Shown: in pieces, positions 9,772 through 34,609 of the stretch
How positions within the stretch are numbered: the first letter of the stretch is position 1
How the letters are laid out: each line of letters begins with the position of its first letter
Assembly (NCBI GenBank): GCA_025456065.1
Contig: JALOLH010000023.1
Location: 1 to 34,609, forward strand
Direction of reading: 5' to 3'
Source of the DNA: Candidatus Nanopelagicales bacterium
GTDB taxonomy: Bacteria; Actinomycetota; Actinomycetes; S36-B12; CAIYMF01
Length of the DNA stretch: 34,609 nt
The notes under the pieces: model-generated
Seen by the model: the letters and a program-made list of their open reading frames with translations, nothing else
The model's database searches: none
What the model was told of the DNA's origin: nothing
Position numbers and translations under genes: made by a program

Positions 9772-9927
9772 CCGCCGCCCTCGGGGCGCTCGCGCCGCTG
9801 CCTGCGGTCGCCGCCGGCCCGGGTCGCCGTGCCACTGCCGGCCGCTCGCGCCGCTCCCGCGGCCCGGCCAGGGACCTCGGCGGGACGACGGGCGACGCTC
9901 GTCGGGCGGCGGCGTGGAGCCGGTCAA

Positions 9928-9961: not shown

Positions 9962-12214
9962 ATGGCCCCGTCCGAGCAGCGCCGTCCCGCCCTCGCCGTC
10001 CTCACGTCGGGCGGGGACTCCCAAGGGATGAACGCGACGGTCCGGGCGGTCGTGCGCACCGCGATCGCCCGCGGCGCCGACGCGTACGCCGTCTACGAGG
10101 GGCTCCAGGGCCTGGTCGACGGCGGCGACCGCATCCGCCGCTTCGACTGGGACGACGTCAGCGGGATCATGCACCTCGGCGGCACGGTCATCGGGACCGC
10201 CCGCTCCGCCGACTTCCGGGAGCGCCAGGGGCGCCTGCGGGCGGCCCGCAACCTCGTCGAGCGCGGCATCGACCGGCTCGTCGTCGTCGGCGGCGACGGC
10301 TCGCTGACCGGCACCGACATCTTCCGGGAGGAGTGGCCCGGGCTGCTCGACGAGCTCGTCGCGACCGGGGAGCTGTCCGCCGAGCAGGCCGAGGCGCACC
10401 GCCAGCTCATCATCGCCGGCGCGGTCGGCTCCATCGACAACGACATGGTCGGCACCGACAAGACCATCGGTGCGGACTCGGCGATGCACCGGATCATCGA
10501 GGCCATCGACGCGCTGGCCAGCACCGCGGCCAGCCACCAGCGCTCGTTCGTCGTCGAGGTGATGGGCCGGCACTGCGGCTACTTGACCGTGCTGTGCGCC
10601 ATCGCCGGGGGCGCGGACTACATCCTGATCCCCGAGGTGCGCCCGGCGCCGGGCTGGGAGGACGAGCTGATCGCCCGGCTGCGGGCTGGTCGCGCCGCCG
10701 GACGCCGCGACAACCTCGTGCTCGTCGCGGAGGGCTGCCACGACCGGTCGGGCACGCCCATCACCCCGCAGATGGTCGCCGACGTCATCACGCAGCGAGC
10801 CGGCGAGGACACGCGCGTCACCATCCTCGGCCACGTCCAGCGCGGTGGTGCGCCCAGCGCCTACGACCGTTGGATGCCGACCTTGATGGGCCACGCCGCG
10901 GCCAACGAGGTGCTCGACGCCGGGCGCGACCACGTCTCGCAGCTCATCGGCATCCGCGGCAACCGGGTCACCCGCATGCCGCTGATGGAGGCCGTGGCCC
11001 TGACCCGCGCGATCCCCGGCCTCATCGAGGCTGACGACGTGAAGGGCGCGATGGACGCGCGGGGCTCGTCGTTCGCCGAGATGGTGCGCGTCTTCGAGGG
11101 CATCTCGAAGCCCGAACCGGTGTTCCCGAGCCAGGGCACCCGGATCGGCATCCTGCACGCGGGCGGCCTGGCGCCTGGCATGAACGCGGCGGTCGCCGGC
11201 GCGGTTCGGTTCGGCATCTCCCGCGGGCACGACATCTCCGGCATCCACGGCGGCTTCCCCGGCCTGCTGCGCGGCGACGTGCGCCCGCTGGGGTGGGCCG
11301 ACGTCGAGGGCTGGGTGGTCAGGCCGGGCTGCGAGCTCGGCACGAGCCGCACCACGCCTGCGCCGGAGCAGGCCGCCGAGATGGCCGCCGCCCTGCAGGA
11401 GCACAGCCTCGACGCCCTGCTCGTGATCGGCGGGCACCGCGCGTACGCGGCGCTGTACGAGCTGGCACCGCTGCGCGAGGAGCACCCGGGCCTGCAGGTG
11501 CCGGTCGCCCTCCTGCCGGCCTCGATCGACAACAACCTGCCGGGCTGGGAGATGTCGGTCGGCGCCGACACGGCGCTCAACGAGATCGTCAAGGCGATCG
11601 ACATGATCCGGGTGGCGGCCAGCGCCTCACGGCGGGCCTTCGTCGTCGAGACCATGGGCCGCCGCTGCGGCTTCCTGGCGTTCCTCTCGGCATTGTCGAT
11701 CGGTGCCGAGGAGGTCTACCTGAACGAGGACCCGCCCACCCTGGCGCGCCTGAACGCCGACGTCGCCGAGATGGTCGCGGGGTTCCGGGCAGGCCGCAGG
11801 TTCCACCTCTCCGTGCGCAACGAGGAGGCCAGCGAGGGCTACACGACGGAGTTCCTCCGCCAGCTGTTCACCGAGGAGTCGCAGGGCCTGTTCGGCGTCC
11901 GGGCACAGATCCTCGGCCACATCCAGCAGGGCGGGACCCCCACGGCCTTCGACCGCGCCCACGGCGCGGCCCTGGCCGCCACCTGCGTCGACTGGCTGAC
12001 CGGGCAGGTCCTGTCCGGCCGCCACGACTGGCGCTACATCGCCGTCGTCGACGACAAGGTGTCCACGGCCTCCCTGACGAAGATGGGCGACACCTACGAC
12101 CTCGAGGCGCGCCGCCCCCGCGAGCAGTGGTGGATGGAGCTCGGCGAGGTCATGGAGCTGCTGGCCAAGCGGCCGACCGAGCCGGTCGAGCCGCTCGCGA
12201 CCGCCGATCGATAG
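9962..12214 (+). CDS. pfk: Tandem-domain ATP-dependent 6-phosphofructokinase, eukaryote-like
   Basis: Phosphorylates fructose 6-phosphate to fructose 1,6-bisphosphate. It has 750 residues instead of the usual bacterial 320-340, because it contains two PFK domains. The N half (about 8-385) is catalytically complete: GGDSQGMNATVR, GGDGSLTG (110-117), SIDNDMVGTD (157-166, base Asp159), MGRHCGY (201-207) and HVQRGGAPSAYDR. Gly at GGDGS and Gly before SIDND mark an ATP rather than PPi enzyme. The C half (about 393-690) keeps GGLAPGMNAAV, MGRRCGF and HIQQGGTPTAFDR. It has GGHRA in place of GGDGS and SIDNN in place of SIDND, so it is probably not catalytic. That design is like eukaryotic PFK, whose C half is allosteric. 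ATG 9962 has AGGAGG six bases upstream. The ABM and amidase genes follow closely. Confidence 0.95.
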   Translation: MAPSEQRRPALAVLTSGGDSQGMNATVRAVVRTAIARGADAYAVYEGLQGLVDGGDRIRRFDWDDVSGIMHLGGTVIGTARSADFRERQGRLRAARNLVERGIDRLVVVGGDGSLTGTDIFREEWPGLLDELVATGELSAEQAEAHRQLIIAGAVGSIDNDMVGTDKTIGADSAMHRIIEAIDALASTAASHQRSFVVEVMGRHCGYLTVLCAIAGGADYILIPEVRPAPGWEDELIARLRAGRAAGRRDNLVLVAEGCHDRSGTPITPQMVADVITQRAGEDTRVTILGHVQRGGAPSAYDRWMPTLMGHAAANEVLDAGRDHVSQLIGIRGNRVTRMPLMEAVALTRAIPGLIEADDVKGAMDARGSSFAEMVRVFEGISKPEPVFPSQGTRIGILHAGGLAPGMNAAVAGAVRFGISRGHDISGIHGGFPGLLRGDVRPLGWADVEGWVVRPGCELGTSRTTPAPEQAAEMAAALQEHSLDALLVIGGHRAYAALYELAPLREEHPGLQVPVALLPASIDNNLPGWEMSVGADTALNEIVKAIDMIRVAASASRRAFVVETMGRRCGFLAFLSALSIGAEEVYLNEDPPTLARLNADVAEMVAGFRAGRRFHLSVRNEEASEGYTTEFLRQLFTEESQGLFGVRAQILGHIQQGGTPTAFDRAHGAALAATCVDWLTGQVLSGRHDWRYIAVVDDKVSTASLTKMGDTYDLEARRPREQWWMELGEVMELLAKRPTEPVEPLATADR

Positions 12215-12223
12215 GAGGGCCAG

Positions 12224-12517
12224 ATGATCCTGGAGACCGCGACGATCACGGTCACGCCGGGCCGCGAGGACGAGTTCGTGGCCGCCGTGGAGCAGCAGGG
12301 CAGGGTCGTCCTGGAGCGTGCGGACGGCTGGCGCAGCCTGCGCGTGCTGCGCGGCATCGAGCGCCCCTCGGTCATCCAGCTGCACCTCGAGTGGGAGACG
12401 CTCGAGGACCACACCGAGGGGTTCCGCGGGGGGCCGCTGTTCGGCGAGTGGCGCGCCGTCATCGGCCCGTTCTTCGCCGAGCCCCCGCAGGTCGAGCACT
12501 GGGCCCCGACCGCGTGA
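12224..12517 (+). CDS. ABM-family (antibiotic biosynthesis monooxygenase-like) protein
   Basis: A 97-residue ferredoxin-fold protein of the ABM family, small cofactor-free or heme-binding oxygenases that act as dimers. Seen: the opening strand LETATITVTPGREDEFVAA, the middle WRSLRVLRGIERPSVIQLHLEWETLEDHTEGFRGG with Trp and the conserved His-Thr-x-x-Phe pattern, and the final strand QVEHW. The family covers quinone-forming monooxygenases, heme degraders and proteins of unknown role; the sequence does not decide between them. The start is well supported: GGAGGG lies directly upstream of ATG 12224, only nine bases after the pfk stop. Its TGA overlaps the GTG start of the amidase by four bases. 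It is probably co-transcribed with pfk. Confidence 0.88.
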   Translation: MILETATITVTPGREDEFVAAVEQQGRVVLERADGWRSLRVLRGIERPSVIQLHLEWETLEDHTEGFRGGPLFGEWRAVIGPFFAEPPQVEHWAPTA

Positions 12518-13989
12518 GCGATCGCGCGCCGGGCCCGGACCGTGCGGGCGGGGAGCCCCGGCACGCCCTCGGCGCCCTCGACGTCGCCGCGCGCCTGGCG
12601 GACGCGTCGCTCACCAGCGCGGGGCTCGTCGAGCACCTGCTCGCCCGCATCGCGCGGCACGAGCCGCGACTGCACGCCATGATCGCCGTGGCCGACGACG
12701 CCCGGGCGCAGGCGGCCGCCGCGGACGCCCGGCGAGTGGCGGGCGCGGCGATCGGTCCGCTCGACGGCGTGCCCGTGCTGGTCAAGGACAACGTCGAGGT
12801 CCTCGGGCTGCCCGCCTGCGCGGGTTCGTTGGCCCTGGCCGACAGCCCGGCCGAGCGGGACGCCCCGCTGGTGGCCCGGCTGCGTGCGGCCGGGCTGGTC
12901 GTGCTCGGGACGACCAACCTCTCCGAGTGGGCCAACTTCCGGGGGATGGCCTCGCCGAGCGGCTGGTCGGCGGTCGGCGGCCTGGTCGACAACCCGTGGC
13001 AGACGGGGCGCTCGGCAGGCGGGTCCTCTGCGGGCTCCGGTGCGGCCCTGGCGGCCGGGTACGCCCCGCTGGCCATCGGCACCGAGACCGACGGCTCGAT
13101 CACCTGCCCGGCGGCGCTGTGCGGCGTCGTCGGGCTCAAGTGCACGGTCGGCCTGCTCCCGACGGTGGGCGTCGTGCCGATCGCCTCGAGCCAGGACGCC
13201 CCGGGCCCGATGGGGCGCAGCGTGGCCGACGTGGCCGCCCTGTTCGCCGCGCTCACCGGCGCGGATCCGGTGGCAGCAGCGGGATCCGTGGCGGCCGGGC
13301 CGAACCCTGCGCGCCGGTTCGTGCTCGGCGCCCCAGCCGCCTGGCGAAGCGGCCACCCCGGCGCCGACGCCCTGGCCGACGTCGCGCTGGCCGCGCTCCG
13401 GGACGCCGGACTGGTCGTGGTGGACCTGGACGGCGTGGCTGCGGACGAGCACGTCGACGTCGACGAGGTGACGGTGCTGGTGCACGAGATGGCCGACGAC
13501 CTCGACGCCTACCTGCGCAGCCGGCCTGGCTCGGGCCCCACTTCCGTGGCGGCCGTCGTCGCCTTCAACGCGGCCCACGCGCAGGCCGAGCTCGCGCACT
13601 TCGGCCAGGAGTACCTCGAACGCGCGGTCGCCTGTGCCGGGCGGGTGGACCCGGCCTACGCGCGGGCGCGTGCCCGCAACCTCGACTGGGCCATCGGCAC
13701 CGTCCTGGCCCCGGCGTTCGCCCACGGCGTCGACGCCCTGGTGGCCCCCGCCTACGGGCCGGCGTGGGAGAGCCGGCTGGACGGCGGGGACGTGTTCACC
13801 GGTGGGGCGGTGACCACCGCCCCGGCGATCGCGGGGTGGCCGATCCTCACCCTGCCGATCGGGCTGGTCGGGGGGGTGCCGATCGGCCTGGCCATCGTCG
13901 GTCCGGCGCACGGGGAGTCCACCCTGCTGGAGATCGGGGCGGTGGTGGAGGCCGTGGTCGGTCGCCTCGGTCTGGCCCCGCTCGTCTGA
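12514..13989 (+). CDS. Amidase signature family hydrolase
   Basis: A 491-residue amidase that hydrolyses an amide bond by a Ser-cisSer-Lys triad. All three are visible: Lys91 in VLVKDN, cis-Ser171 in GGSSAGSG and nucleophile Ser195 in [10 protein letters not shown]. The C-terminal segment [23 protein letters not shown] matches the end of the family fold. There is no signal peptide. It is not GatA: no gatB or gatC lies nearby, and the context is pfk and an ABM gene. The start is GTG 12514, within the ABM stop (GTGA overlap), so translation is coupled; the first 15 residues are Pro/Gly-rich and may be disordered. Substrate is unknown. Confidence 0.92.
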
Positions 13990-14137
13990 TCCGACCCCTG
14001 CCGACGCCCGCCGGGCCCGACTCGGGACCAACGGCCCGTGGGAAGGCCCATCCTGCTGTTCGCCGGAAATGGCGATGGTGCAGGCTAGGAAGGTGCGCCC
14101 GCCCGGGGCGCGCCTGGATCAGATGGAGCCACGCGCC

Positions 14138-15970
14138 ATGACATTCCCCGGATTGGAGAACCCCCCGACGCAGAACAAGAAGCTCCTGGAGTGGGTGGAG
14201 CAGGTCGCGACCCTGGCCAAGCCCGACCGCATCGAGTGGTGCGACGGCTCCCAGGAGGAGTGGGACCGCCTCACCACGCTGATGGTGGACGATGGCATGG
14301 CCATCGCGCTGAACCCGGAGAAGCGGCCCAACTCGTTCCTGTTCCGCTCGGATCCCTCGGACGTGGCGCGCGTCGAGGACCGGACCTTCATCTGCTCGCT
14401 CGACGAGCACGACGCCGGACCCACGAACAACTGGCACGACCCGGTCGGCATGCGCGGCATCCTCACCGGCCTGTTCGACGGTTGCATGCGCGGCCGGACG
14501 ATGTACGTCATCCCGTTCTCGATGGGCCCGCTGGGCTCGCCGATCTCCGAGCTCGGCGTCGAGATCACGGACTCGCCCTACGTCGTGGTGAACATGCGGA
14601 TCATGACCCGCATGGGCCGGGCCGCCCTGGACCTCATCGGACCCGACGGCGACTTCGTCCCGTGCGTGCACTCGGTCGGCTACCCGCTGCGCGACGTCGA
14701 CGCCAACGAGCGCCCCGACGTGGCGTGGCCGTGCAACGAGATCAAGTACATCGTGCACTTCCCGGAGACCCGTGAGATCTGGTCGTTCGGCTCCGGCTAC
14801 GGCGGCAACGCGCTGCTGGGCAAGAAGTGCTTCGCGCTGCGCATCGCCTCGGCGATGGCCCGCGACGAGGGCTGGCTCGCCGAGCACATGCTGATCCTCA
14901 AGCTCACCAGCCCCAGCGGCGCGGTGAACCATCTCGCGGCCGCGTTCCCGAGCGCCTGCGGCAAGACCAACCTCGCGATGCTCGAGCCGAGCGTGCCGGG
15001 CTGGAAGGTCGAGACCGTCGGCGACGACATCGCGTGGATGCGCTTCGGCGAGGACGGCCGGCTGCACGCGATCAACCCGGAGTCCGGCTTCTTCGGGGTC
15101 GCCCCGGGCACCTCGATGAAGACCAACGCGAACGCGATGCGCACCCTGTGGGGCAACAGCATCTTCACCAACGTGGCCCTGACCGACGACGGCGACATCT
15201 GGTGGGAGGGGATGACCGACGAGGTCCCGGCCCACCTGATCGACTGGAAGGGCCGTGACTGGACGCCGGACTCCAAGGAGCCGTCCAGCCATCCGAACAG
15301 TCGGTTCACCGCCCCCGCGGCGCAGTGCCCGACCATCGCCGACAACTGGGAGGATCCGGCCGGCGTCACCATCGACGCGATCCTGTTCGGCGGCCGGCGC
15401 GCCACCAACGTCCCGCTGGTCAACGGCGCCCGCGACTGGGAGCACGGCGTGTTCATCGGTGCCACGGTCTCCTCGGAGATGACCGCCGCGGCCGTCGGCG
15501 GCGTCGGCCAGCTGCGCCGTGACCCGTTCGCCATGCTGCCGTTCTGCGGCTACAACATGGCCGACTACTGGGGCCACTGGCTCAGGATCGGCCGGGCGAC
15601 GTCGCCGGAGAAGCTGCCGCGCATCTTCCAGGTGAACTGGTTCCGCAAGGACGCCGAGGGCAACTGGCTGTGGCCGGGGTTCGGCGAGAACAGCCGCGTC
15701 CTCGCCTGGATCATCGACCAGGTGAACGGCGTGGCCAACGGGGTCGAGACGCCGATCGGGATCGCCCCGGCGCCCGGCGCGCTCTACCTCGAGGGCCTGG
15801 AGATCAGCGAGGCCGAGCTGACCGAGCTGTTCAAGGTGGACCCGGGCAGCTGGCTCAGCGAGTGCATCCTGACCGAGGAGTACTTCTCGCAGTTCGGCGA
15901 CCGGGTGCCGGCCGAGCTCTACGCGCAGCTGCAGATGCTCCGCGAGCGCCTCGAGGCCGCCAAGGACTGA
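14138..15970 (+). CDS. pckG: Phosphoenolpyruvate carboxykinase (GTP)
   Basis: Converts oxaloacetate and GTP to PEP, CO2 and GDP, the entry to gluconeogenesis; in actinobacteria it can also run in the anaplerotic direction. The 610 residues match the GTP-type length. Seen: [10 protein letters not shown] (269-278) with the P-loop and the reactive Cys274, GDDIAWM (295-301), [15 protein letters not shown] (312-326) and [15 protein letters not shown] 14138 is preferred since GGAG lies nine bases upstream and PEPCK proteins begin near PGLENPP; ATG 14123 is possible. It is a single-gene unit, with 148 bases before it and a strong hairpin after it. Its neighbour upstream is the pfk group, which works in the opposite flux direction. 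Confidence 0.97.
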
Positions 15971-15994: not shown

Positions 15995-16025
15995 AGGGCC
16001 CCCCGCGGTCGTCGTGGGGGGCTCT
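15995..16025 (+). terminator. GC-rich stem-loop after pckG
   Basis: Ten-base arms (15995-16004 and 16016-16025) pair with one G-U wobble around an 11-base loop, 25 bases after the pckG stop. No T-tract follows, which is common for actinobacterial terminators. Confidence 0.6.
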
Positions 16026-16064
16026 GGCGTCGGCGGGGCGCGCGGCGATGGCAGGATGCGCCGC

Positions 16065-17126
16065 ATGAGCGTGCGCACGACGACGGACGTCCTGGCCGGC
16101 CTGGACGTCGACCTGCGGGGCCGGGACCTGCTCAAGGAGGTCGACTGGACCGCCGCGGAGCTCGACGCCGTGATCGAGCTGGCGGCCCGCCTCAAGGCCG
16201 CCCGCGCCGCCGGCGTGGAGCAGCAGCACCTGGCGGGGCGGGTCGTGGCCCTGATCTTCGAGAAGACCTCGACCCGGACCCGCTGCGCGTTCGAGGTGGC
16301 GGCGTTCCACCAGGGCGCGCACACGACGTTCCTGGACCCGGCCGCCTCCCAGCTCGGCCACAAGGAGTCCGCGGCCGACACCGGGGCGGTGCTGGCCGGC
16401 ATGTACGACGCGATCCAGTTCCGCGGGGTCGCCCAGGCGACCGTCGAGGAGCTCGCCGAGGGTGCCGACGTGCCGGTCTACAACGGCCTCACCGACGACT
16501 GGCACCCCACGCAGATGCTGGCCGACTACCTGACGATGCAGGAGGTGTCCGGCGGCGCCCCGTGGGCCGAGCTGAGCCTGGCGTACGTGGGGGACGCCCG
16601 CTTCAACATGGGCAACTCGGCGCTCGTGATGGGGGCGATCATGGGGGCGGACGTACGCATCGTCGCGCCGCGCTCGCTGTGGCCGTCGGCGTCGGTGCAG
16701 GCCCTCGCACGGGACCGGGCCACCGCCAGCGGGGCCCGGTTGACCCTGACCGAGGACGTCGCGGAGGGGGTGTCGGGGGCGCGCTTCGTGCACACGGACG
16801 TGTGGGTCTCGATGGGGGAGCCGAAGGAGGTGTGGGACGAGCGCGTGCCGCTGCTGCGGCCCTATCGGGTGGACGGCGCCCTCATGGCGGCGACGGGCCG
16901 CGCCGACGCCGTCTTCATGCACTGCCTGCCGGCGTACCACGACACGTCGACCCTGGTCGGGCAGCAGGCCGCGCAGCGGTTCGGCCTGGTCGACGGCCTG
17001 GAGGTGTCCGACGCCGTGTTCCGGTCACCGGCCAGCGTCGTGTTCCAGCAGGCGCACAACCGCATGCACACCATCAAGGCCCTGATGGTGGCGACGCTCG
17101 CCGGCGGAGGACAGCGTCAGGCGTAG
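16065..17126 (+). CDS. argF: Ornithine carbamoyltransferase
   Basis: Makes citrulline from ornithine and carbamoyl phosphate. The 353-residue protein has the carbamoyl phosphate site [13 protein letters not shown] (STRTR at 69-73), DDWHPTQ (144-150), the ornithine-binding DVWVSMGE (SMG at 249-251) and FMHCLPA with the catalytic Cys287. Absence of arginine biosynthesis genes on one side and of arcA/arcC on the other leaves the biosynthetic or catabolic direction open; its slightly long length is seen in both classes. ATG 16065 is chosen; an in-frame ATG at 16056 is possible. CAGGAT at 16052-16057, seven bases before the start, could be a weak -10 of a leaderless transcript or supply AGGA as a ribosome site. 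The 3' end overlaps the convergent whiB gene by 10 bases. Confidence 0.95.
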
Positions 17127-31923: not shown

Positions 31924-33613
31924 CCCCGCCTGTTCCGGGTCATCGTGGGCCCCCAAGGGGGCCGTGGGCAAGGGCCGGTAGGCCTCTGTCGCTCAGGCCA
32001 GCTGCCAGGCGCCGTCCGTGTGTGTCAGGCCGAGGGTGAGGAGCCGGCGCAGGTTGAGCGCGGCGACGCGGTGGTGGGCCCAGGCGTTGTTCTTGGCCAC
32101 GCCGCGGTAGGGCACTCGCCGGTTGCCTCGCACGAGCCAGGCGATCGAGCGTTCCACCATGGGCCGGTGGGTGCGGTAGGTGGTCTGGAAGCCGGGGTCG
32201 GCGGCACGCTGTCGGTGCGCGCGTTGCAGCGCCTCATGTTCGTGCACCTGGATCTTGCGCCCCCGCTTGGAGGTGGTGCATCGGGCACGTAGCGGGCAGT
32301 CGGCGCAGGCCGCGCCGAACGTGACCCGACGTTTCGCCGACAGGGTGCGGGTGACCCCGGCGGGGCAGGTCAGCGTGCCCGCGGCCGGGTCGTAGGTGAA
32401 GTCATCACCGGTGAACCCGCCCTCGACGGCGGGCCGGGTCGGCCACGGCTTGATGACCGGCACTTGCCCAGCCTCGGTGAGGGTGGCCAGCATCGCCCCG
32501 GTGCCGTAGGCCGAATCGGCGAGCACCTCAACCGTGGCCCCACCCGGGTCCAGGGTGGTGTCGGCGCCGAGCAGGGCGGCCCCGACGGTGGCGTCGCTGT
32601 TGTCCGCCCCCGAGGCCTTGGTCACCGCGACGGCGGTGGTCAGCCCAGTGTCCGGCTCGACCACGAGGTGGGCCTTGAACCCGTCCTGGCGGCGCTCCCG
32701 GGACTTGTGGGCGTGCCGGGTATCGGGGTCCACCACCGAGATCACCCGGTCCTCGACGACCCGCCGGGCGATCCGCCACCGACCGTCGGTGCCGTCCGAA
32801 TCCTCTGCTGGTTCCACGTCCTGACCAGCGACCAGGGCCAGCAGCGCCACCGCCTCTGCGGGCGTCCCGCCCTGAGCCTCGATTGCCGTGATGTCCAGGG
32901 CGGCCAGCAGCGCCAGCGCGTCATTGACCAGCGCCGAGACCAGCGCCTCCCGCGCGGCCGGGTCATCCCAGGCGATCCGCGGCTTGCCCGCCGAGGTGTA
33001 GTCATGCCCGGCGCAGTGCACGGCAACCAGCTCGGCCGCGCCCGGGACCTCGCGGGCGACCCGGCGAACCGCGGCGATCAACTGGGTCACCGTGTCCTGC
33101 CGGGCGACCGCATCATCAAGCACGGTGGAGTCCAGAGCCCGACGATGCCGGCCCTGGAGCGCCCCGGTCTCGATGATCACCTGGCGGACCACGTCGAAGA
33201 TCCGGTGCGGCCCGGCGCTGCCCGCCAGCCGCCGCCGCCAGTAGGTCAACGTGCTCGAGTGAAACGCCGGCGCGTCGACCGCCAGCCCGCACGCGGCCTT
33301 CCACCGCAGGTCGAACGTCGCCGCGTCGGCGGCCTCCCGATCCGACAGCCCGTTCAGGGTCTGCAACACGATCACCGACGCGATCACGTCCGCCGGGATC
33401 GAAGGCCGGCCACGACCCGATGGGAACAGGTCAGCGAACATCTCCTCCGGGAACAACTCCCGACGATGCCCGGCCAGGAACGCGAACACGCTATCCGCCG
33501 GCAGCAGATGCCCCGCCACCGACTCCACATCCCACAGATCCCGCTGACCCCCAGCCCGCCCCTGCATGGGCAACAGCCTCCCAGCCCACCCCGAACCGAC
33601 CCAGCAGGCGGGG
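31924..33613 (-). mobile_element. IS1182-family insertion sequence
   Basis: About 1.69 kb with one transposase gene. CCCCGCCTG at 31924-31932 recurs inverted (CAGGCGGGG) at 33605-33613; GGGTC follows on each side with a two-base offset, so these are probable terminal inverted repeats. No target duplication is visible; the right flank is the IS256 element. A 16-base palindrome (GGCCCCC-AA-GGGGGCC, 31948-31963) lies inside the left end, after the transposase stop. The ends need confirmation by comparison with other copies. Confidence 0.7.
31993..33567 (-). CDS. IS1182-family DDE transposase
   Basis: A 524-residue cut-and-paste-type transposase. The N-terminal DUF772-like domain (about 50-115: RGRPSIPADVIASVIVLQTLNGLSDREAADAATFDLRWKAACGL) is followed by the catalytic core: first Asp146 in RRALDSTVLDD, second Asp in EVLADSAYGTGAM, and Glu in PMVERSIAWLVRGNRRV. 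A Cys cluster (CADCPLRARC) lies between them as usual. All parts look intact, so the element may be active. ATG 33567 is the natural start; the frame continues upstream to 33846 only by chance overlap with the IS256 gene. GC content is a little lower than that of the chromosomal genes. Confidence 0.93.
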   Translation of the reverse strand: MQGRAGGQRDLWDVESVAGHLLPADSVFAFLAGHRRELFPEEMFADLFPSGRGRPSIPADVIASVIVLQTLNGLSDREAADAATFDLRWKAACGLAVDAPAFHSSTLTYWRRRLAGSAGPHRIFDVVRQVIIETGALQGRHRRALDSTVLDDAVARQDTVTQLIAAVRRVAREVPGAAELVAVHCAGHDYTSAGKPRIAWDDPAAREALVSALVNDALALLAALDITAIEAQGGTPAEAVALLALVAGQDVEPAEDSDGTDGRWRIARRVVEDRVISVVDPDTRHAHKSRERRQDGFKAHLVVEPDTGLTTAVAVTKASGADNSDATVGAALLGADTTLDPGGATVEVLADSAYGTGAMLATLTEAGQVPVIKPWPTRPAVEGGFTGDDFTYDPAAGTLTCPAGVTRTLSAKRRVTFGAACADCPLRARCTTSKRGRKIQVHEHEALQRAHRQRAADPGFQTTYRTHRPMVERSIAWLVRGNRRVPYRGVAKNNAWAHHRVAALNLRRLLTLGLTHTDGAWQLA

Positions 33614-34609
33614 ACTGTCCGGAGAACGGTGTAAGTGGCCCGACACGCCAGCCGATCGGCTTGGCGGGGAAGGGTCGTGATGACCGAGACATTGGTGGGC
33701 GTGAATCCACCTCCGATTGAAGCTGATGAGGACCGGCGCCAGCCGTCGGCCGAGGAGCTCGAGGCGGCGCGGGAGCTGGTGCGCCAGGCCCGCGACCGCG
33801 GTGTCGCGTTGACCGGCCCGCAAGGGCTGCTCAAGGCGTTGAACAAGACGGTGATCGAGATCGCCCTGGACGAGGAGCTGTCCGAGCACCTCGGCTACGA
33901 CAAGCACGATCCGGCCGGGCGGAACCGGGGCAACTCCCGCAACGGCAAACGCAGCAAGACGGTGCTCACCGACGCCGCCGGCCAGATCGAGATCGACGTG
34001 CCGCGGGACCGGGACGGCACCTTCGAACCGGTCATCGTGGCCAAGCGGCAGCGCCGCCTCTCGGAGGTCGACGAGGTGGTCCTGTCGCTGTATGCCAAGG
34101 GGCTGACGACCGGGGAGATCAGCGCCCACTTCGCCGACGTGTACGGGGCGTCGGTGTCCAAGGACACCATCAGCCGGATCACCGACCGGGTGATCGAGGA
34201 GATGCAGGCCTGGTGGTCACGCCCACTCGACGGCGTGTACGCGGCGATCTTCATCGACGCGATCCACGTCAAGATCCGCGACGGTCAGGTCGGCAACCGC
34301 CCGATCTACGCCGCCATCGGGGTGGACCTCGACGGTCACAAGGACATCCTCGGGATGTGGCCGGGCAGCGGCGGTGGGGAATCGGCCAAGTTCTGGCTGG
34401 CCGTGCTCACCGACCTGCGCAACCGCGGCGTGCGCGACGTGTTCTTCGTGGTCTGCGACGGGCTGAAGGGCCTGCCCGACTCAGTCAACGCGGTCTGGCC
34501 CGACGCGATCGTGCAGACCTGCATCATCCACCTGATCCGCGGGTCGTTCCGCTACGCGTCGCGCAAGTACTGGGACGAACTGGCCCGCGACCTCAAGCCC
34601 ATCTACACC
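33611..34609 (+). mobile_element. IS256-family insertion sequence, left part only
   Basis: The left end is recognised at about 33611-33638 by GTCCG-x6-A/C-GGTGTAAGTG, the same spacing of GTCCG and GTGTAA as in the inverted repeat of IS256. The element continues past the window, so the right end and target duplication cannot be seen. Its left end abuts or overlaps by up to three bases the probable IS1182 end at 33613. Confidence 0.75.
33680..34609 (+). CDS. IS256-family transposase, 3' end beyond window
   Basis: The first 310 residues of a mutator-type transposase; the frame is still open at the last base. Seen: TGPQGLLKALNKTVIEIALDEELSEHLGY, RNRGNSRNGKRSKTVLTDAGQ-like binding segment, DVPRDRDGTFEPVIV, the first catalytic Asp193 in FIDAIHVKIRD, the second Asp260 in VVCDGLKGLP, and CIIHLIR (C-x2-H), all family hallmarks. 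The catalytic Glu would lie beyond the edge. ATG 33680 follows a GGGGAAGGG ribosome site; GTG 33677 is adjacent. No disruption is visible in the part present. Confidence 0.95.
   Translation, partial: MTETLVGVNPPPIEADEDRRQPSAEELEAARELVRQARDRGVALTGPQGLLKALNKTVIEIALDEELSEHLGYDKHDPAGRNRGNSRNGKRSKTVLTDAAGQIEIDVPRDRDGTFEPVIVAKRQRRLSEVDEVVLSLYAKGLTTGEISAHFADVYGASVSKDTISRITDRVIEEMQAWWSRPLDGVYAAIFIDAIHVKIRDGQVGNRPIYAAIGVDLDGHKDILGMWPGSGGGESAKFWLAVLTDLRNRGVRDVFFVVCDGLKGLPDSVNAVWPDAIVQTCIIHLIRGSFRYASRKYWDELARDLKPIYT

Follow-up and report, generated by a model that had tools for sequence, protein, structure and literature searches.

The stretch analysed here (hereafter the window) comprises 34,609 nucleotides of contig JALOLH010000023.1 from a Candidatus Nanopelagicales bacterium. 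Its forward strand encodes, at positions 9962–12214, a tandem (eukaryotic-type) ATP-dependent 6-phosphofructokinase (PFK) of 750 aa. The frame is open from an ATG start codon, and a further in-frame GTG is present at 9914. PF00365 matches the protein twice, which places two PFK domains in one chain. The NCBIfam model for eukaryotic-type PFKs, TIGR02478, matched with 948.6 bits (E = 2e-285); membership in this family is defined by a whole-protein score above the curated equivalog cut-off of 708.4 bits, and the window PFK was hence confirmed as a member by a match far beyond chance. The best PDB match was human PFKP (E = 5e-213), and over the whole length the closest solved structures were human and rabbit PFK-1 and yeast PFK, with short bacterial PFKs far behind. 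An AlphaFold2 model was computed from 48 natural bacterial sequences as a single chain, although the C-half pocket is completed by a neighbouring subunit, and reached a mean pLDDT of 92.2 and a pTM of 0.92. The top Foldseek match of this predicted model was the R state of human liver PFK (PFKL, 8w2g; TM 0.95, rmsd 1.7, 741 columns), while short bacterial PFKs covered only half of the chain. Both the domain order and the fold match the TIGR02478 family, and the two fused PFK domains recognized in an earlier, sequence-only reading of this DNA were borne out over the full length. Since the window PFK falls into a curated family, its kind was already known; presumably, the description of TIGR02478 names Propionibacterium acnes as a bacterial exception.

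Downstream, a gene of unknown family (about 12223–13995, reverse strand) separates the PFK gene from a gene for a GTP-dependent PEP carboxykinase (14069–15970, forward strand; PF00821/PF17297), which is followed by an aspartate/ornithine carbamoyltransferase-like gene (16014–17126). A transposase gene (DDE_Tnp_1_6, DUF772; 31993–33846, reverse strand) is located near the window end. The gene at 12223–13995 had no Pfam match; its product is 57.96% identical over 597 aa to the counterpart in L023, a locus from a Nanopelagicales MAG with a PFK 88% identical to that of the window, and the gene stands beside the PFK gene in locus L005 as well. All three downstream neighbours are conserved in L023. 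The gene for the GTP-dependent PEP carboxykinase also adjoins the tandem PFK gene in L023 and in the Chloroflexota locus L131 (L131:12-1331). Contamination with eukaryotic DNA was ruled out, because the GC3 of the PFK gene (0.97) matches the window's codon composition, another genome from the same genus also carries the gene, and the PEP carboxykinase and carbamoyltransferase-like neighbours are conserved in L023.

The other PFK of the window genome is of the PPi type (locus L003, G000:C67:11213-12082; NF005121, 707 bits) and contains the motifs GGDDTN and PKTIDND. No further PFK besides these two was found in this genome, which is 85% complete, so that an absent short PFK or other gene may correspond to an assembly gap. 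At least one further PFK-A gene accompanied the tandem PFK in each of the 20 tandem genomes examined.

The N half (residues 9–353; 9986–11020, forward strand) is a PFK domain that contains SHQRSFVVEVMGRHCGYL and retains each tested ATP, Mg and F6P residue, including Gly104, a mark of the ATP type; the tested residues are present in all 139 bacterial tandem proteins or nearly so. The motif GGDGS (residues 110–114; 10289–10303, forward strand) provides the equivalents of Asp103 and Gly104 in an ATP-type donor site. Within SIDND (residues 157–161; 10430–10444, forward strand), D159 corresponds to the catalytic base Asp127 and D161 to Asp129. The donor signature of PPi-PFKs (GGDD, PKTIDND) is absent from the window N half, which reads GGDGS and VGSIDND. 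The catalytic motifs and the ATP-type glycine reported from the sequence were thus all recovered, and we infer that the N half is catalytic and of the ATP type; it would phosphorylate fructose 6-phosphate (F6P) with ATP.

The C half (about residues 392–735; 11135–12166, on the forward strand like all elements named in this paragraph) is a degenerate regulatory PFK domain. Its ATP/Mg site is gone: in GGHRA (residues 490–494; 11429–11443) H492 replaces the Asp103 equivalent and R493 replaces Gly104. The loss of this aspartate, already pointed out for the window PFK, extends to all 139 bacterial tandem proteins, in which its place is taken by W (75), L (23), F (18), H (11) or others. The description of SIDNN in place of SIDND (residues 521–525; 11522–11536) was correct and could be refined, as D523, the equivalent of the catalytic base Asp127, is kept and only the Asp129 equivalent is lost (N525); animals and fungi have TVSNN here. 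An intact Asp-Asn-Asp occurs in none of these 139 proteins (DNN 90, NND 22, NNN 21, SND 3, SNN 1, TND 1, NHD 1). The phosphate-binding residues, on which a check of the C pocket had been proposed, are retained. The 6-phosphate contacts R558 (PFKM R566, E. coli R162; 11633–11635) and R647 (PFKM R655, E. coli R243; 11900–11902) as well as E621 (PFKM E629, E. coli E222; 11822–11824) are invariant (139/139 each), and R463 (PFKM R471, E. coli R72; 11348–11350) is Arg in 138/139 bacteria and in all eukaryotes. The motif MGR (residues 565–567; 11654–11662) combines M565, the M169 equivalent found in 139/139 bacterial C halves, with R567, the Arg171 equivalent, which is Gly in animals and fungi. The sugar-phosphate loop HIQQGGTPTAFDR (residues 653–665; 11918–11956), earlier described as kept, retains H653 (His249 equivalent, 138/139) and has Q656 for Arg252, a glutamine common to all six eukaryotic sequences. 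On the C-terminal tail side of the pocket, R717 (PFKM R735; 12110–12112) is Arg in 81/139 bacteria and 6/6 eukaryotes. Judged from residues alone, the window PFK has the C half typical of TIGR02478, with the ATP site gone and the sugar-phosphate pocket present. The residues of an F2,6BP-type pocket, Ser530 and Gly575, are not found: the window has D523 and R567 instead. At PFKM position 530, where animals and fungi have Ser, the bacterial C halves have Asp (90/139) or Asn (44/139), and at position 575, Gly in animals and fungi, they have Arg in 119/139. The numbering of this site follows what we take to be the UniProt annotation of PFKM, checked by residue identity only. The former catalytic residues have changed less in bacterial than in eukaryotic C halves. 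Judged from tree lengths and identities, evolution is faster in C halves than in N halves.

In animal and yeast PFK, the F6P pocket of the C half (F′ site) became an activating sugar site, and F1,6BP is bound in the C-half F′ site of human PFKP (4XZ2) (PMC12203962). The bacterial C half would be a dead PFK domain in which the ATP/Mg site was destroyed and the F6P pocket was left as an allosteric sugar-phosphate site, a glycolytic sugar phosphate bound there favouring the active state. That it is instead a purely structural remnant without ligand would be in line with the destroyed ATP site and with the faster evolution of C halves; as Arg558, Arg647, Glu621 and Met565 are invariant in the 139 proteins, Arg463 and His653 in all but one, while the ATP side varies freely, we regard a mere remnant as quite improbable. 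PFK-1 of the kind regulated by fructose 2,6-bisphosphate (F2,6BP), as in animals and fungi, responds to this effector with activation, is inhibited by ATP and citrate, and occurs together with PFK-2/FBPase-2. Regulation of the bacterial C half by F2,6BP, as in animals, could draw on the conserved equivalents of R471, R566, E629, R655, H661 and Q663. However, the substitutions at positions 530 and 575 run counter to it, as an Asp beside the expected 2-phosphate position should repel F2,6BP. Moreover, PFK-2 (PF01591) was found above the cut-off in none of 30 tandem genomes, the window genome being 85% complete. F2,6BP could be made in tandem bacteria by an enzyme unrelated to PFK-2, and the retained D523 could reflect selection for something besides F1,6BP binding; altogether, control by F2,6BP appears very doubtful. 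Given a pocket with Asp or Asn in place of the animal and fungal Ser and usually with Arg in place of the Gly, and given the lack of a recognizable PFK-2 in the tandem bacteria, the bacterial C half probably senses F6P or F1,6BP, which would be its most likely natural ligands. Regulation by F2,6BP may then have been added in the eukaryotic line via the Asp/Asn-to-Ser and Arg-to-Gly changes.

Among 40 relatives from the window's own group, a tandem gene above the cut-off was found only in the window genome and in the second genome of the same genus. Other genera of the window's family gave partial TIGR02478 matches only, in frames of about 345–510 aa; one of them, L006, is a single-domain PFK_mixed protein. 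The window's genus would have acquired the tandem PFK, the other sampled genera of the family being without the tandem gene. A wider scan of relatives with one genome per species yielded 154 confirmed cases, and the 80 best were retained. These best 80 of 154 came from Cellulomonadaceae, Actinomycetaceae, Propionibacteriaceae, Dermatophilaceae, Accumulibacter, Competibacteraceae and Chloroflexota and, in addition, from single MAGs labelled Acidobacteria, Deinococcota (Trueperaceae) and Planctomycetota. By phylum, tandem PFKs were detected in 32 of 301 sampled Chloroflexota genomes, 25 of 397 Actinomycetota, 2 of 149 Acidobacteriota, 1 of 399 Pseudomonadota and 1 of 101 Deinococcota, each count including a seed genome previously known to carry the gene. 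The intact two-domain frame is conserved in 139 bacterial tandem proteins. The double PFK seen in an actinobacterium is real, but it is not confined to this one organism and belongs to a branch of bacterial proteins with its centre in Chloroflexota and Actinomycetota, for which a curated family model exists. In the full-length tree, the Chloroflexota sequences form a grade, and two actinobacterial groups, Acidobacteriota and Proteobacteria arise from within it, which points to transfer of the tandem PFK between bacterial phyla. Following the duplication, the gene would thus have spread among bacterial phyla horizontally.

Some of these loci deserve separate mention. Where the Pseudomonadota loci L026–L065 had an informative name, the tandem PFK occurred, among the best 80 of 154, only in Accumulibacter/Propionivibrio (Beta) and Competibacteraceae (Gamma). 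These are lineages known for polyphosphate or glycogen accumulation. The tandem PFKs of Accumulibacter aalborgensis and Contendobacter odensis are 88% identical, whereas identities within the Accumulibacter/Propionivibrio set are as low as 75%, which suggests that the gene moved between co-habiting wastewater bacteria. Two MAG contigs look mislabelled or mis-binned: L020, labelled Proteobacteria, with a PFK 66% identical to that of the window, like the Actinotalea copies, and L038, labelled Phycisphaerales GAO1, with a PFK 83% identical to a Competibacteraceae copy. One Chloroflexota tandem PFK (G243:C175:34749-36929; 818 bits) has a single in-frame TAG and is either a decaying gene or affected by a sequencing error.

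The sequence-only reading had found many segments closer to eukaryotic than to common bacterial PFKs, among them LFTEESQGLFG, which is present in the window PFK, and the comparison by halves upheld this: the N half of the window PFK shares 53.6% identity with the human N half, whereas no short bacterial PFK of the set exceeds 45.0%, and its C half shares 40.1% with the human C half, against a maximum of 37.0% for the short PFKs. For the phylogeny of the separate halves, 30 bacterial and 6 animal and yeast tandem proteins were split and aligned with 29 short PFKs. The eukaryotic sequences were PDB chains, from animals and yeasts only, and the E. coli PfkA query was identical to a PDB chain. The N halves of bacteria and eukaryotes fell into one clade and their C halves into a second, a fully supported branch separated the tandem N half from all short PFKs, and neither half grouped with short bacterial PFKs. 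Fusing two PFK genes is a simple step that could happen repeatedly, and the bacterial duplication might therefore have been independent, only resembling the animal and fungal enzyme. Yet forcing the bacterial N and C halves together cost 128.7 log units (AU test, p-AU 0.00015), and forcing the eukaryotic halves together cost 112.2 log units (p-AU 0.0007). In addition, the replacement of Arg252 by Gln in the C half and the loss of Asp103 are common to bacteria and eukaryotes, and the proteins align colinearly over their full length, including the linker and a C-terminal WW motif. Independent duplication, rejected on both sides under the model used, is thus extremely improbable. The duplication is older than the split between the bacterial and eukaryotic gene lineages; duplication and fusion occurred once, before the bacterial and the animal and fungal genes parted.

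The eukaryotic N halves form one clade (99/89), as do the eukaryotic C halves (100/99), so that no descendant of the sampled animals or fungi can have been the donor of the bacterial gene, and donation to bacteria after the animal–fungus split is disfavoured. A eukaryote living before that split might have given the gene to bacteria, among which it then spread. Such a donor would agree with the description of tandem PFKs as a eukaryotic trait (PMC12203962), with the patchy bacterial occurrence expected of a late arrival and with the N-half trees, in which the bacterial clade stands beside the eukaryotic one (support 92/92, 94/95 and 95/89 in three trees). The best C-half tree, on the other hand, has the eukaryotes among Chloroflexota-type bacteria, and 0% of 200 bootstrap trees unite the bacterial C halves. 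With a careful tree search their monophyly had a p-AU of 0.208 and is compatible with the data, the quick C-half tree having overlooked a better tree that unites them. Because of this better tree, its p-value and the disagreement of the N halves, a nesting of eukaryotes inside bacteria was set aside. Reciprocal concatenation (N+C versus C+N), used to root the tree, gave no firm base, the support for bacteria as one clade being 14 and 47. The early-eukaryote donor is further opposed by the single eukaryotic clade in each half, by the short PFKs nearest to the N half, which are bacterial and mostly from Chloroflexota, if weakly (80/59), and by the lesser alteration of former catalytic residues in bacterial C halves, and we consider it rather unlikely. 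Of the three origins initially offered, a separate duplication has thus fallen away, whereas a bacterial source and a transfer are both compatible with the trees. We lean towards a bacterial origin of the tandem PFK without claiming it. As a tentative scenario, to which we give somewhat less than even weight, the animal and fungal tandem PFK was invented in bacteria, likely in or near Chloroflexota, with the dead half as a sensor of F6P or F1,6BP that eukaryotes retuned to F2,6BP. Under a bacterial origin, Asp127 would have changed to Ser and Arg171 to Gly in eukaryotes once PFK-2 existed, and living bacterial enzymes, with Asp, Asn or Ser at the Asp127 position, would preserve intermediates.

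Tandem PFKs serve as a textbook example of how new allosteric sites arise by gene duplication (Poorman et al. 1984, cited in a 2025 superfamily review, PMC12203962). This review and a 2024 phylogeny of PFK-A (PMC11609450) assigned the duplication to eukaryotes or to animals and fungi. No report on bacterial tandem PFKs was found in the literature searched, which is weak evidence as most subscription literature lay outside it. What seems to be unreviewed is how large the bacterial branch is, that it shares the duplication with animals and fungi, and that its regulatory pocket differs at two residues. With good though not full confidence, we interpret the window gene as an ATP-PFK of the tandem type with an allosteric F6P/F1,6BP site in its C half, descended from one ancient duplication and spread horizontally among bacteria. 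With bacteria sharing the duplication, its date moves back to before the split of the bacterial and eukaryotic genes. Bacterial tandem PFKs can also serve as an outgroup when the conversion of a catalytic into a regulatory pocket is reconstructed, and as single-gene enzymes they make the step from an F6P to an F2,6BP site testable via two residues.

Compared with animal PFK-1 (human PFKP, PFKL, PFKM; PDB 4xyj, 8w2g, 3o8l), the window PFK shares two fused colinear domains with a catalytic N half, a C half that lacks Asp103, has Gln for Arg252 and keeps the 6-phosphate arginines and the histidine, and a similar WW-containing C-terminal end. It differs by a C pocket with D523 and R567, versus Ser530 and Gly575 in animals, by an overall identity of about 45% and by the PFK-2 partner, not found in the 30 tandem genomes. 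Yeast PFKs (S. cerevisiae Pfk1/Pfk2, K. pastoris; PDB 3o8o, 3opy) have the tandem architecture and the degenerate C half as well, but they are 41–44% identical, possess an extra N-terminal domain and read QGG in the C half where the window reads MGR. The other bacterial tandem PFKs (Actinotalea/Cellulomonadaceae, Actinomycetaceae, Propionibacteriaceae, Accumulibacter, Competibacteraceae, Chloroflexota) belong to the same family, with 61–67% identity to the nearest outside the window's own group and 46–58% to most others; their C-half motif varies, being DNN in 90 and mostly NNN or NND otherwise. The short ATP-PFKs (PfkA of E. coli and Bacillus; TIGR02482) have the full catalytic site of the window N half, which is 40.8% identical to E. 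coli PfkA, but consist of a single domain.
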